DNA from: Thiothrix subterranea
GTDB taxonomy: Bacteria > Pseudomonadota > Gammaproteobacteria > Thiotrichales > Thiotrichaceae
DNA length: 64,000 bases
Direction of reading: 5' to 3'
Assembly: GCF_016772315.1 (NCBI RefSeq)
Contig: NZ_CP053482.1
Coordinates: 124,001-188,000, forward strand
Shown here: positions 51,498 to 57,193 of the stretch, piece after piece
Layout of the letters: every line of letters starts with the position of its first letter
Position numbering within the stretch: position 1 is the stretch's first letter
Notes under the pieces: generated by a model
Databases searched by the model: none
Told to the model about the DNA's origin: nothing
Seen by the model: only the letters and a program-made list of their open reading frames with translations
Position numbers and translations under genes: made by a program

Positions 51498-52388
51498 TCA
51501 TTCTTGCAATAGCCCAAGATACGTTAGCAAAGCATCGCTCAATGCACCGGCGGCGACCTGATCAAATCCTGCAAACATTGGGTTAGTATTGATCTCCAAA
51601 AACTGCCACTCCCCCGTATGCGAGTCAGTTTTGAAATCAGCCGCTGCGAAATCCAGCCCTAAATGATCCGACAAGTACGCCAGTTTTTCCACCAAATCAT
51701 CCGGCACATCCACCACTTGCATCCGAGTAGAGGAGGCTGAGCGGTAATCCAATGCCTCCGCCTGAATCAAAAAGCCAAACCAAGCGTTACCAATACGAAA
51801 TACCCGCAACTCCGGCGAAGCTAAACGCCGTTGCACAATCTGCGGGTAAGACAGTATGTTATTGCCCGTGATTTCATGCGCTGCCAACGGGGTACAGTAA
51901 GCGCCGCCCGTCACAGGCTTAGCCACCCACTCCCCATGCTCATGCAACTGCGCCATCGCGAGAAGGTCGTTGCTGACATACGTGTCAGCAACGTTAAACC
52001 CCATGCTCAACGCCAAGCGTAACATGTAAGGCTTATTAACCCCGCCACACGGCAGGAACCGCCGATTACATAACGCAATATCCGGCGAACTTAACAGCCA
52101 GCCGGACACGCTAACAAACCATTCACGCGCTGCTGAATTATCTTGAGCATTGTTGCTCTTCAGGTAAGCAAACACATCCTGTCGGATAAATGCTGCCGAT
52201 ACCGCGACTTCCTTGTCGTCATCCAGCAAACGGTTGCGGTGAATATCCCAATGCAAACGCGGCGAACCCGATTGCCCTGTGAGCAAACAATGCACGGGAA
52301 TATCATGCAATGCCGCCCGTTTCAGCAGACGTACCAATTGAGGGTCAGTGTCACCGCCTGCCAATAGCAATCGGGGCTTTATTGTCAT
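51498..52388 (-). CDS. ATP-grasp ligase, probable graspetide cyclase
   Basis: 296 residues. ATP-grasp landmarks: NKPYMLRLALSMGFNVADTYVSND (about 117-140), GEWVAKPVTGGAYC (lysine and glycine-rich loop), VQRRLASPELRVFRIGNAWFGFLIQA, and the metal-binding end DFAAADFKTDSHTGEWQFLEINTNPMFAGFDQ (acids in D-F-K and E-I-N-T-N-P). This RimK/MvdD-like layout fits ligases that join Thr/Ser/Lys side chains to Asp/Glu in RiPP precursors. AAGGTG is 8 bases upstream, 12 bases after a gene whose product ends in two TTxxxxEE cores, the expected substrate. Confidence 0.85.
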   Translation of the reverse strand: MTIKPRLLLAGGDTDPQLVRLLKRAALHDIPVHCLLTGQSGSPRLHWDIHRNRLLDDDKEVAVSAAFIRQDVFAYLKSNNAQDNSAAREWFVSVSGWLLSSPDIALCNRRFLPCGGVNKPYMLRLALSMGFNVADTYVSNDLLAMAQLHEHGEWVAKPVTGGAYCTPLAAHEITGNNILSYPQIVQRRLASPELRVFRIGNAWFGFLIQAEALDYRSASSTRMQVVDVPDDLVEKLAYLSDHLGLDFAAADFKTDSHTGEWQFLEINTNPMFAGFDQVAAGALSDALLTYLGLLQE

Positions 52389-52400
52389 GGTTGAATCACC

Positions 52401-53384
52401 TTATTTGTAATCGTGATGCCCGCCGTCTTCTTCGCCAATTGCCAACGTGGTCGCAATGGGGTCATCCACTGGCGGCAAACCACCGTCTTCCTCACCTACC
52501 ATCAAGGTCGTAAAGCTTGGCTCTGGTCGGAAATTGCTAATGGTATAGCCCATTTCCTCATCCGCTATCTGGACGCTTTGATCAATATAAATCGACGCTG
52601 GCAGGCCATATTGCTTGTCGTAGCTGACATCAACCTTAGCCGCACCGCTTTTGATACCCTGTTCTACTAAATTAAACAAACCGTCAGCATTCAAATTGTA
52701 AATAGACTGCCTATTTGTTTGGCGATCATCAGGGAGCAACTCACCGGTATCCGCATAGGTAGCCGACTTAACGCTCCCGTCACGCACTTCAATATTAATC
52801 GGACGAATCGCATCACCCCGACAAAAGCAATTACGCTGTAAAGTAAACGAGTAATCGTCAATATCCAGCGAATCCCACTTTTTGCGGTTCGCGTCCAACT
52901 GTTGCTGCGCGTCTGAGCTTGTGGAACCGCCTGCATTAATGGCTTTCACATCGCGTGCAGTCAATTTCTGCCGCGAAATTTCACCACCGGTAATGCCGCC
53001 GGAAATGACCAAGGTATCACCCGCACTGAGCTTGCCGTCCTTTTTACTATCCAGCACCTCGTAACTCAACGCGCCCTTAATATCGAAACGTTCGCGCACA
53101 GCTTTATCTTGCTGCCGCGTCAATTGCAGCGGTTTAGGTTGCGGCTTGGATGGCTCAGTCGGGGGCAGTTTGTCACCAATCACTTGAATCAACTGCATAA
53201 TGAGCTTGATTAGGGCTTCATTATCGCCTTTGCCAAAGGTGTTGTTACCTGAATTGCTTTGAATCGCCTTCACCGCATCGCCAAGCACGCTAGTAGCAGT
53301 CGCCAGCGTCTGGGCTGAACTGCTGCTATTTTGATTAGCAACCTGCGTTGGCTTGCTTCCACTGCTCTGTGTTATCCCTGTCAT
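52401..53384 (-). CDS. Large graspetide precursor with DUF6174-like domain
   Basis: 327 residues from ATG 53384, with GGAGG 7 bases upstream. Order: Ser/Gln/Asn-rich N-terminus (1-60); Pro/Lys-rich segment (about 80-95); EF-hand-like loop DSKKDGKLSAGD (about 120); DUF6174-like domain (about 160-285) with DSLDIDDYSFTLQRNCFCRG, YDKQYGLPASIYIDQ and DEEMGYTISNF; C-terminal cores TTLMVGEEDGG and TTLAIGEEDGG. TTxxxxEE is the signature of plesiocin-type graspetides, in which Thr and Glu side chains are joined by ester bonds. The gene next to it encodes an ATP-grasp ligase. No signal peptide is seen. A precursor this large with a folded domain is unusual. Confidence 0.82.
   Translation of the reverse strand: MTGITQSSGSKPTQVANQNSSSSAQTLATATSVLGDAVKAIQSNSGNNTFGKGDNEALIKLIMQLIQVIGDKLPPTEPSKPQPKPLQLTRQQDKAVRERFDIKGALSYEVLDSKKDGKLSAGDTLVISGGITGGEISRQKLTARDVKAINAGGSTSSDAQQQLDANRKKWDSLDIDDYSFTLQRNCFCRGDAIRPINIEVRDGSVKSATYADTGELLPDDRQTNRQSIYNLNADGLFNLVEQGIKSGAAKVDVSYDKQYGLPASIYIDQSVQIADEEMGYTISNFRPEPSFTTLMVGEEDGGLPPVDDPIATTLAIGEEDGGHHDYK
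52419..52511 (-). other. Two predicted graspetide core repeats
   Basis: Core 1, TTLMVGEEDGG, is coded at 52479-52511 and core 2, TTLAIGEEDGG, at 52419-52451, separated by LPPVDDPIA. Both keep TT-x4-EE-D-GG. The tail GGHHDYK follows. Up to two esters per core are predicted from the plesiocin pattern. Confidence 0.8.
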
Positions 53385-53598: not shown

Positions 53599-55776
53599 AT
53601 GGCAACCCGCGAAGAACTCAGCGCACAAGCATCCGCCTGCAATGATGCAGAATCCTACGCCGCCCTTGCTAAACAAGCCGCAGCCGAACCCGCCGATCTG
53701 GACTACGCCAAAGAATTGCTGGCAAAAGGCGAATCCAACTGCTCTTTCCCCGCGCATTACGTCGCGGTTGCGGAAGGCTATGTGGCGGCTGGTGATAACG
53801 ACAAAGCCGCTGCCCTGTACGACGAAGCCGCCAATGCGTGCTTTGATGCCAAAGAAAAAGCTGAAACTGGCTACAGCATTGCCAAATTCCTCGGCGACCG
53901 CGACAAAGGCCGTGCGTTGTTGGAAGAAGCCATCAGCGAAACCACCAATACCACCGAATTGCTGTCTTACGCCGGTTACGTGCAAGACGCACTGCAAGAC
54001 AATGCGCTTGCCAACAAGCTGTTCAGCAAAGTCACTGCCAACTGCAAAAGCATTGCCGATTACCAAAAACTGGCGAGCGACATTAAAAACAGCGGCAACC
54101 CTACTACCGCGCTGATGGTCTTCAAAAAGGCCGCACCTTCCAGCAGCGAAACTGCCGACGTGGTGAGCTTTGCGAAAGGTTTAAAAGACCTGTTCGGCGA
54201 TGATAAAGAAGTCGCAGCGACACTGGGCGATGCGGAAAGCAATTGCATGTTCCCCGCGCAATTTGTGGTACTCGCAGGCGGTTTCATGAACCTGCTCGGC
54301 GACAAAGCCAAAGCCGAAGATTTGCTGGAACAAGGCAAAAACTTCGCCATGAGCGGTGAAGAAAACCTCGACCTTGCCACCGGTTACGCCAGCTTACTGG
54401 GCGACCAAGCCACTGCTAAAGATATGTACGGTGTTGCCCTGAACGAATTCAGCGGCAAAGAAGACCTGTTGAAACTCGCCAGTGCCGTTGCCGCCAATAT
54501 GGATGACAAAACCATCGCAGGCAAAGCTTACGACAAACTCGCCAGCAAACTCAGCACCCCTACCGATTTGGCAATGTTGGCAAAAGCCGTCAACGACAAC
54601 CTCGGTGACAAAGACCGCGTTGCCAGCATTTACGCTGCTGCGGAAAGCAAAGCCACTAACGCTGCCGCCTTGGTATCACTCGCAGGCGAAGTCAATGCCA
54701 ACTTGCAAGACCCTGCCAAAACCAACGCGCTGTACGCCAAAGCGGTTGACGCTTGCAAAGTTTACACTGACGCAACCAGCATCCTCGAAGCCCTCGCCAA
54801 AAATCCGGCGGATACAGCATTGGCAGGCACTGCCCTGCAAAAAGCACTGGAGCTGACCGACACCAACGCACAAGTATTAGACGTAGCGCAACGCGCCCAA
54901 AAACTGACACCGGGCGACAATACCGTGGTTATCCAGGCTCTCGACAAAGCCGAAGCTAACGTCAGTTCCCTCGATGAAATGCGCAAACTGGCAAATGCAT
55001 CCAAGCAATTGCTGGCGGATGATGCCGAGCGCAACGACCGCATCAGCGGGAAACTGGCTAAGCGCGAAGCCAGCCAAGCGCGTTACACCGAATTCCAAAA
55101 TCAGGAAAAAACCCTGACGCGCCCCAACCAGTTCATTGCACTGGCAGGTGCGGTGGTCGAAGAACTGGAAGACACCTCCTACGCCAGCCAATTGCTGACC
55201 ACGGCGGAAGAAAAGATGCAGGATGCAGGTACATTCAGCTTTGCCGCTTACCAGCCACTGATCGTTTCCGTCGGCAATCTGGTCAAAGACAAAGCATGGT
55301 TAGCGCGTTTGCTCGACTTAGCCGCGAACAACAGCAATACCTTTGCCCAAGTGCGCAACCTTGGCGAAACCGTCAGCAAGCAACTCAGCGACACTGAGTT
55401 TGGCAAAACTTGGACGCAGCAATTCTACGCCGCACAACTGGAAAAACTGGATGCCAGCAACGCCAGTACTTTCGAGTACAATAAACTTGCTAAAGCGGTG
55501 AAAGAGCATTTGGATGACGACGCGCAAGCGCAAACGATTTTGGACAAAGGTGAAGCCAAAGCCGAAAACCATTTCCACTTTGCTTACATGGCAGAACTGG
55601 CGCAAAAATGGGGCAATAGCAGCAAAGCCGAGAGCTTATACGCTAAAGCCACTGCCGCGTGTCAGGATGCCAGCCAGCAACGTGAATTGGCGGATTTGAT
55701 GCGTAAAGCGGGTGTGGTGAGCACACTGGCGCAAGCGGCAACGCCAAGTCAGGGTGGCAAAGGCACTTATTGGTAA
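53599..55776 (+). CDS. Helical-repeat protein of unknown function
   Basis: 725 residues of alpha-helical repeats of about 33-36 residues throughout, for example FPAHYVAVAEGYVAAGDNDKA and FPAQFVVLAGGFMNLLGDKA, with recurrent A-x-LYxKA endings. TPR/Sel1-like solenoid, probably a protein-binding scaffold. No signal peptide or membrane segment; acidic and Ala-rich. GGAGG is 7 bases upstream of ATG 53599. First gene of a three-gene set with the protease and helicase, divergent from the graspetide pair. Confidence 0.8.
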   Translation: MATREELSAQASACNDAESYAALAKQAAAEPADLDYAKELLAKGESNCSFPAHYVAVAEGYVAAGDNDKAAALYDEAANACFDAKEKAETGYSIAKFLGDRDKGRALLEEAISETTNTTELLSYAGYVQDALQDNALANKLFSKVTANCKSIADYQKLASDIKNSGNPTTALMVFKKAAPSSSETADVVSFAKGLKDLFGDDKEVAATLGDAESNCMFPAQFVVLAGGFMNLLGDKAKAEDLLEQGKNFAMSGEENLDLATGYASLLGDQATAKDMYGVALNEFSGKEDLLKLASAVAANMDDKTIAGKAYDKLASKLSTPTDLAMLAKAVNDNLGDKDRVASIYAAAESKATNAAALVSLAGEVNANLQDPAKTNALYAKAVDACKVYTDATSILEALAKNPADTALAGTALQKALELTDTNAQVLDVAQRAQKLTPGDNTVVIQALDKAEANVSSLDEMRKLANASKQLLADDAERNDRISGKLAKREASQARYTEFQNQEKTLTRPNQFIALAGAVVEELEDTSYASQLLTTAEEKMQDAGTFSFAAYQPLIVSVGNLVKDKAWLARLLDLAANNSNTFAQVRNLGETVSKQLSDTEFGKTWTQQFYAAQLEKLDASNASTFEYNKLAKAVKEHLDDDAQAQTILDKGEAKAENHFHFAYMAELAQKWGNSSKAESLYAKATAACQDASQQRELADLMRKAGVVSTLAQAATPSQGGKGTYW

Positions 55777-55816: not shown

Positions 55817-57193
55817 ATGAAACCCCGTAGCCATCAAGTTGGCGGCTGCCGGGTTGGGGCTGTCCCCACGGATGCCAAACGCCGTAAAATTGGCCGTTCT
55901 GCCGCGAAACCGTTGCCCGCTAAAGTTGACCTACGGCCGTATTTGACTGAGGTTGAGGAACAAGTGGGCAACAGTTGCGTGGCGAATGCGTGCGCAGGTG
56001 CGTATGAATACTTGGCTAAACGTCATTTGGGGGAATCCGCTGATGTCAGCCGCTTGTTTATTTATTACAACGCCCGTTATGAAGACGATGACAGCGAGAA
56101 TGACGACGGCACATCCATGCAATCGGCGATCGAGGGATTAAAGAAATACGGGGCGTGCCACGAAAATTTGTGGCCTAACGACACAGACTGCATTACCGAA
56201 GAACCGGCGGCGGAAGCTTATGAACACGCCGCCAATTTCAAAATTGCCGAAGCCGAATACGTCGAAACAGATTTGGATTTGTATCGCCACACCTTGGCAG
56301 AAGGCTACCCCATTGCGTTTTGCTTGAACACCTTCTCTTCGTTTGATGAAGCAACCGACAACCGTGGGCGCGTCCCTTTACCAAAAAAGACCGAGCAAGT
56401 ACGCGAAGAACACGGCTGGCACGCCATGCTTTGTGTTGGCTATTTAGACAAAGATAAGATGTTCATCGTGCGTAATTCTTGGGGCAATGAATGGGGCGAC
56501 AATGGCTATTGCTACATTCCCTACAAATACGTGATTCACGCTGAACTCAACGGACATGATACTTGGGTCGTCAAAGCGGTTGAGGACTTGGATTTTAATG
56601 CTGACATTGAATCCGAAGATGACAGCTCTTACTTTGCGGAAGATGGCGCAATCCAACTGTTCGATTTCTATGTTGCCACGGACGCGGTTGAGGATTTTTC
56701 TACGGCATTGGAAGCATTGTGTGAACAATATGCCAATGCGGAAGCCTTCTATTTTGACTACGAAGAAAGCGAAGAAGATGGCATCACTTACGCCATTATC
56801 AGCAACTTTGACATCTCGCTGGATGACCCTGAGACGTTCTTGGAAGAACTGGATGCGTTGTGCAACGAATGGGCAGACGCTGAAAATTACGCTTTCAGCA
56901 TAGAAGGTTACGACGATGATGATAGCGAAGCCGCTGCCGCACTGACGTTAAGTGATTTCTATATCTACACCGACCACGCTGAAACCGTCGCCGCAAAAAT
57001 TGAAAAGTTATGCGCCAAACACACGACTGACGATGATTATACGCTTGAATGGGAAGAGAGCGAGGATGAAAACGGTGCTTACCTTGGATTTTCAACCTTT
57101 GAAATCACGCCAGATGATGAAGAAGCATTTTTAGCCGCACTGGAAACACTTTGCGAAAAACTATCCAACGATAACGGTTATAACTGGGAATAA
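55817..57193 (+). CDS. Papain-like (C1) cysteine protease with acidic C-terminal repeats
   Basis: 458 residues. Catalytic Cys in EEQVGNSCVANACAGAYEYL (about 53), catalytic His in HGWHAMLCVGY (about 197), Asn in VRNSWGNEWGDNGYCYIP (about 218). The usual Gln of the oxyanion hole is probably the Q of EEQVGNSC. From about 270 follow acidic repeats of about 50 residues (LSDFYIYTDHAETVAAKIEKLC, FSTFEITPDDEEAFLAALETLC), each ending near LC. No signal peptide, so it is cytoplasmic. Its stop overlaps the helicase start (TAATG). Confidence 0.85.
   Translation: MKPRSHQVGGCRVGAVPTDAKRRKIGRSAAKPLPAKVDLRPYLTEVEEQVGNSCVANACAGAYEYLAKRHLGESADVSRLFIYYNARYEDDDSENDDGTSMQSAIEGLKKYGACHENLWPNDTDCITEEPAAEAYEHAANFKIAEAEYVETDLDLYRHTLAEGYPIAFCLNTFSSFDEATDNRGRVPLPKKTEQVREEHGWHAMLCVGYLDKDKMFIVRNSWGNEWGDNGYCYIPYKYVIHAELNGHDTWVVKAVEDLDFNADIESEDDSSYFAEDGAIQLFDFYVATDAVEDFSTALEALCEQYANAEAFYFDYEESEEDGITYAIISNFDISLDDPETFLEELDALCNEWADAENYAFSIEGYDDDDSEAAAALTLSDFYIYTDHAETVAAKIEKLCAKHTTDDDYTLEWEESEDENGAYLGFSTFEITPDDEEAFLAALETLCEKLSNDNGYNWE

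Follow-up and report, generated by a model that had tools for sequence, protein, structure and literature searches.

The window analysed here, a stretch of 64,000 nucleotides from the filamentous sulfur bacterium Thiothrix, contains a pair of genes on the minus strand in which a 327-residue protein is followed, 12 bases after its stop codon, by the open reading frame of a 296-residue ATP-grasp enzyme (Table 1). The larger protein, referred to below as the precursor, ends in ...PSFTTLMVGEEDGGLPPVDDPIATTLAIGEEDGGHHDYK, and its two cores, TTLMVGEEDGG and TTLAIGEEDGG, like the 12-base spacing, can be read directly, just as in an earlier sequence-only reading that had proposed the pair to be a graspetide system with an unusually large, DUF6174-containing precursor. 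A 725-residue Ala-rich repeat protein with no Pfam match above the cut-off is encoded divergently from the precursor (window 53599-55776, plus strand), and the gene at 55817-57193, on the same strand as that of the repeat protein, encodes a cysteine peptidase of the papain family (PF00112, E 3.4e-11) whose C-terminal half is acidic; in the stretches compared, such a peptidase is near the pair only in the window genome, G060 and G061.

Table 1. Features of the gene pair, in window coordinates.
Feature	Position	Strand	Basis
Precursor (substrate) protein, 327 aa	52401..53384	-	ATG at 53384; read directly
N-terminal region, residues 1-80, fast-evolving, low-complexity	53145..53384	-	Model, weak here (pLDDT 28-63)
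EF-hand-like calcium loop DSKKDGKLSAGD, residues 112-123	53016..53051	-	Direct reading, resemblance only
DUF6174, residues 162-287	52524..52901	-	Pfam PF19671, E 1.6e-41
Core 1, TTLMVGEEDGG, residues 292-302	52479..52511	-	Direct reading
Core 2, TTLAIGEEDGG, residues 312-322	52419..52451	-	Direct reading
ATP-grasp enzyme, assigned as graspetide synthetase, 296 aa	51498..52388	-	Sequence and fold matches

About 290 residues, DUF6174 among them, precede the cores. The domain had been recognised in the sequence-only reading and is secure, passing the curated cut-off of its 122-position model with 141.9 against 23.8 bits, and no other Pfam family matches the precursor at E up to 1. NCBIfam gives zero matches and hence no graspetide precursor model, so that the comparison with such models suggested earlier produced no match. 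The 'CFC' motif that had been listed is present, and the EF-hand-like loop DSKKDGKLSAGD is there in sequence although no Pfam family matches it. Helices are predicted at residues 22-43 and 54-71, within the weakly modelled N-terminus, and no signal peptide is seen by eye. The tail (residues 290-327) has pLDDT values below 50, a prediction of disorder in the unmodified protein that could allow the enzyme to reach it while the rest of the precursor is folded. A structure search with DUF6174, made from a weak precursor model (pLDDT 64.5, pTM 0.40), gave LolA/LolB/RseB-like matches that were weak (the best at E 0.015, with none reaching 0.001) and were not used.

The enzyme matches no Pfam family, and the NCBIfam graspetide maturase models match it below their curated cut-offs (the best, TIGR04187, at E 1.8e-22 and 79.9 against 350 bits); its assignment draws on this match together with PDB sequence matches and the fold. 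First, the only PDB sequences that match at E<=1 are 7drm (PsnB, E 9.5e-14), 7m4s and 5ig8, the three being named PsnB, AMdnB and MdnB in the structure-search entries. Second, a profile of 15 enzymes finds PsnB (7drm) in the PDB at E 1.5e-19. Third, a Foldseek search with the AlphaFold model (pLDDT 85.9) returns PsnB chains as the 12 best matches and fills ranks 1-31 with the peptide-modifying ATP-grasp ligases PsnB, MdnC, AMdnB, PruB (for which we assume this role), CdnC and MdnB, with other ATP-grasp ligases such as ArgX, DdlB and RimK ranking lower. PsnB, so named in the PDB entry titles and taken by us to be the enzyme that makes plesiocin, is the nearest solved relative, at 20-23% identity in structural alignments. 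Finally, K157, R195, D251, E265 and N267, which we take to be ATP- or metal-binding positions of the ATP-grasp fold and presumably catalytic, are invariant in all 15 aligned enzymes. By sequence and modelled fold the enzyme is a graspetide synthetase closest to PsnB, the outcome of the family comparison that had been proposed for it.

Sixteen of the 63 genomes of the family carry the enzyme (14 of the 16 in the genus Thiothrix and 2 of the 6 in another genus), the nearest relatives being those of Thiothrix caldifontis (L002, 96% identical) and T. fructosivorans (L003, 78%) and a distant one that of G050 (30%). Beyond the family, the 15-enzyme profile finds one further genome (G373) among 369 of the class at E<=1e-15, with no (S/T)TxxxGEE motif in the 2.7 kb examined near that match, and plasmid matches in eight records are all less than 33% identical. 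Conservation of the tail in homologues beside ATP-grasp genes had been named beforehand as one of two points on which the graspetide reading would turn; a protein with one to six (S/T)TxxxGEE cores adjoins the enzyme at all 16 loci, and in 14 of them this protein contains DUF6174. The other two have short precursors of 151 (G059) and 208 residues (G050) that lack DUF6174, which is therefore not essential to the enzyme family. RTX-type repeats are present in four of the 14 DUF6174 tail proteins, detected by Pfam in G014 and G048 and through a motif in G017 and G062. The G050 locus (L063:8956-10736), in the same genus, is of a more ordinary graspetide type, its 208-residue precursor having six TTxxxGEEDGG cores and its synthetase lying closer to PsnB (E 1.5e-29). 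PDB searches with the window tail and with a six-core precursor, aimed at the plesiocin precursor PsnA2, returned nothing relevant.

The 16 proteins contain 42 cores (41 TTxxxGEE and one STxxxGEE) with 16 distinct eight-residue strings, the constancy of T, G and E being in part a product of the (S/T)TxxxGEE search pattern, which more degenerate cores would escape. Position 3 is L, M, K, Q, Y or H, position 4 is A, M or V, and position 5 is L, V, I, M, C or Y; among the 41 cores with three following residues, 38 have D at position 9 and 35 are followed by DGG. The TTxxxxEE pattern put forward at first is present, and the core is better written as TTxxxGEEDGG. Linkers between cores are mostly Pro-rich, and three proteins (G061, G048 and G062) have a single core. 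The two window motifs are not a chance occurrence, since shuffling the precursor gave two TTxxxGEE motifs in none of 200,000 trials (at least one in 57), and they are the only TTxxxGEE in the six-frame open reading frames of the window (at least 60 residues; 58,294 residues in all).

DUF6174 is a wider domain, found also in lipoproteins (lipobox by eye or motif), in RTX proteins and at the C-terminus of subtilases, relatives that point to a place outside the cytoplasm. Several tail-less relatives resemble the precursor not only in this domain but also in having a similar N-terminal helix and EF-hand-like segment; they differ, among the matches listed, in having neither cores nor an adjoining synthetase. 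Among these matches, DUF6174 proteins without a neighbouring enzyme have no tail: in 54 distinct domains, drawn from up to 30 loci per search and so a part of all the DUF6174 places found, from which domains aligned over 90 or fewer model positions were dropped, the tail is present on all 14 beside the enzyme and on none of the other 40, and in the comparison of places none of these 40 is an immediate neighbour of the enzyme. A syntenic locus in G057 retains the Pqi and 725-residue-protein neighbours with a tail-less DUF6174 protein and other genes at the enzyme's place, a weak control since the junction reads N in this record; G058 has no enzyme, and its DUF6174 proteins are seen without a tail. 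The 14 tail-bearing domains cluster on a tree (4 changes, with 0 of 500 shuffles as low), a grouping that may or may not reflect a single origin of the tail. The Leu-rich N-terminal helix (residues 54-71) was considered as a leader recognised by the enzyme, being shared by the precursors of G059 and G050, which lack DUF6174; as tail-less DUF6174 proteins have a similar helix, it is left as a leader candidate only.

When open reading frames of at least 80 residues within 7 kb of the pair are compared across the 16 loci (the flanks in G014 and G017 end at contig ends), the general members are the enzyme itself (16 of 16) and the substrate, which forms a single family in 15 of 16 loci with the short precursor of G059 standing apart, followed by the 725-residue repeat protein (9), YceI (6), Gcv genes (5) and Pqi genes (4). 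Six genomes (G014, G017, G048, G054, G059 and G062) share none of the tested genes that flank the pair in the window. G054 and G059 have one common neighbourhood, as read by eye, with DUF6174 in the first and without it in the second, and so offer a natural pair that differs in the domain.

The usual view of graspetides is that of small peptides released from a leader by cleavage. TTxxxxEE is the core motif of group 2, and the precursor of plesiocin, a member of that group made by PsnA2/PsnB, consists of a short leader and four cores; the available text of PMC12291112 calls plesiocin 'tetravalent'. The Thiothrix pair is like plesiocin in its repeated TTxxxxEE-type cores with linkers and in having an enzyme nearest to PsnB, and unlike it in the roughly 290 residues with DUF6174 before the cores and in the RTX-type repeats of four relatives. 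An NHLM-type peptidase transporter co-occurs highly with group 2, without being stated as defining in the part of PMC13097080 at hand, whereas no C39-type peptidase transporter, as judged from its C39 domain, is near the pair in the genus; we do not file the Thiothrix system as a member of group 2. Large precursors with repeated modified motifs are also on record for groups 34, 35 and 41 and for corallotide of group 15 (Carter et al. 2026, PMC13097080, partial text), so that precursor size alone is not new. According to the same text, group 35 likewise comprises a synthetase and a precursor only, and corallotide differs in its KxxxD repeats, its extra enzymes and a precursor, CorA, of about 22 kDa when His-tagged. 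Action of a graspetide synthetase on substrates that hold whole proteins has a parallel in protein cyclisation by ThfB (PMC12291112, partial text), which is engineered and places the protein in the loop, while the Thiothrix pair is natural and has the protein N-terminal to the cores. In the available portions of PMC8939145, PMC13097080, PMC12291112, PMC13003496 and PMC7823629 we found no description of a folded domain that is conserved, has homologues in other proteins and lies between N-terminus and cores, and further searches of the literature for graspetide precursors that are large or fused yielded nothing relevant. Thiothrix is named 0 times in the main text, so far as available, of both PMC8939145 and PMC13097080, and the supplementary member lists of the latter may already include it. 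Our searches found no paper that names DUF6174, alone or with graspetides.

We consider it probable that the two genes form a graspetide system acting on a folded protein, and that this protein is an uncleaved carrier of an ester-hairpin tail. A large folded protein with two stapling motifs beside its enzyme suggests rings that are probably formed on the protein end and not on a freed peptide. The ATP-grasp enzyme would phosphorylate both Glu residues of each TTxxxGEE core, and the activated pair would be joined to both Thr residues as nested esters, giving plesiocin-like hairpins with two bonds per core and, over the two cores, a loss of about 72 Da from the 327-residue protein. The N-terminal helix, the EF-hand-like segment and DUF6174 would stay attached as the carrier, and the product would be a protein with a C-terminal string of rigid, probably protease-inhibiting loops, acting on the cell surface or extracellularly. 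Conservation suits a working part of the product better than a throw-away leader, since DUF6174 is more constant than the N-terminus: relative to the window protein, the 13 other tail proteins are 49-98% identical in DUF6174, 20-94% in the N-terminus, where the low values are from distant proteins whose alignment means little, and 31-100% in the tail, and the eight closest are 71-98% and 38-94% identical in DUF6174 and N-terminus, respectively. Several observations count against the proposal as a whole, namely the DGG after most cores, the lack of any export signal found, the two loci without DUF6174, the Leu-rich helix of tail-less relatives and the failure of the PDB search to match the plesiocin precursor.

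The DGG in particular could be a cleavage site at which small peptides are freed. If so, the system would be an ordinary multi-core graspetide, cut after DGG by an unlinked peptidase and with DUF6174 as an oversized leader, and we rate this as possible though somewhat unlikely. It would account for the 35 of 41 cores that end in DGG and for the two relatives in which short precursors bear the same cores, and C39 peptidase domains do occur in five of the 16 genus genomes, that of the window included. However, nine of the 14 genus genomes that carry the system have no detectable C39 peptidase, and no C39 domain is near the pair in the genus genomes searched (G014 and G017 being outside this search), so that C39 cleavage at GG was rejected as a general explanation. 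Nor is there a peptidase- or exporter-like family among the neighbours in at least four of the 16 loci, with families named largely by eye and with incomplete flanks in G014 and G017, and DUF6174 is better conserved than the N-terminus.

A bond of another kind is a poorer candidate still. The enzyme might form interchain esters or amides, giving a polymer or a cross-linked sheath, or might ligate amino acids to the C-terminus in the manner of RimK. The fold is common to RimK and other ligases, chains with several cores could be linked into networks, and cross-linking of separate chains is possible in an engineered system (PMC12291112, partial text); yet PsnB comes first in each of the comparisons made, RimK and its like standing at lower Foldseek rank. 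The spacing of TT and EE also fits the closed hairpin pattern of plesiocin, and we regard these other bonds as improbable. That tail and enzyme are mere neighbours with no functional link, or that the enzyme is degenerate, is scarcely credible, for although the chemistry is a prediction and G061, G048 and G062 have a single core each (that of G062 starting with Ser), the tail goes with the enzyme in 14 of 14 domains against 0 of 40 among the matches listed, the presumed catalytic residues are invariant in 15 enzymes, and the pair stays together across different neighbourhoods.

As to how an uncleaved carrier would leave the cell, type I secretion was suggested by the RTX-type repeats and then rejected as a general route, since in eight of the 16 genomes with the system no HlyD-type adaptor scores over the curated cut-off (one does in 15 of the 63 genomes), three of the four RTX-repeat carriers (G014, G017 and G048) among them. 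The C39 and HlyD searches and the absence of a visible signal peptide support no export route common to all carriers of the tail. Once outside, the likeliest function of the product would be that of a tethered inhibitor, probably of serine proteases, given that all graspetides characterised by 2022 were protease inhibitors (PMC8939145, partial text) and that plesiocin potency grows with the number of motifs (PMC13097080, partial text). Protease inhibition is the usual graspetide activity in both texts; that it is no rule is shown by corallotide, which in a disc test was without significant activity (PMC13097080, partial text).

A fuller version of the carrier proposal seems to us unlikely, namely that the synthetase permanently adds a string of ester hairpins to the end of an exported folded protein that binds calcium, with DUF6174 as a shared docking domain bringing the tethered inhibitor to the cell's own DUF6174-subtilases. 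Open frames of 600-672 residues with DUF6174 are present in 12 of the 16 genus genomes, only those of G000 (Pfam), G049 and G056 (subtilase motif) being seen as subtilases, and no such frame accompanies the graspetide pair in the genomes G053, G054 and G055; a subtilase-DUF6174 partner is thus speculation and was set aside.

Were the enzyme to modify the tail of a multi-domain, folded protein, graspetide chemistry would become a form of protein modification, the pair would offer a naturally occurring enzyme with which to add rigid loops to the ends of proteins, and there would be a first handle on DUF6174.

Some further DUF6174 proteins were observed. The window genome encodes, outside the window, a subtilase (Peptidase_S8, E 2.2e-57) with a C-terminal DUF6174 (G000:C1:723146-723496, L096; E 3.7e-18), and in G049 and G056 the subtilase-DUF6174 gene is about 3 kb from the precursor gene with the gene of the 725-residue protein between them. 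Two DUF6174 lipoproteins (L067:9823-10713 and L065:2632-3447) have a Cys-rich C-terminal part, CTMDAxxCPDG...FAACP, that matches no Pfam family at E up to 0.1. Outside the genus, G038 has a DUF6174 frame that is a subtilase as read by eye and motif, and 13 DUF6174 matches in all, of which 11 are clustered within 9 kb and spread over several long open reading frames (C1:33602-42683), with the others at C1:146654-147001 and C46:91290-91634.
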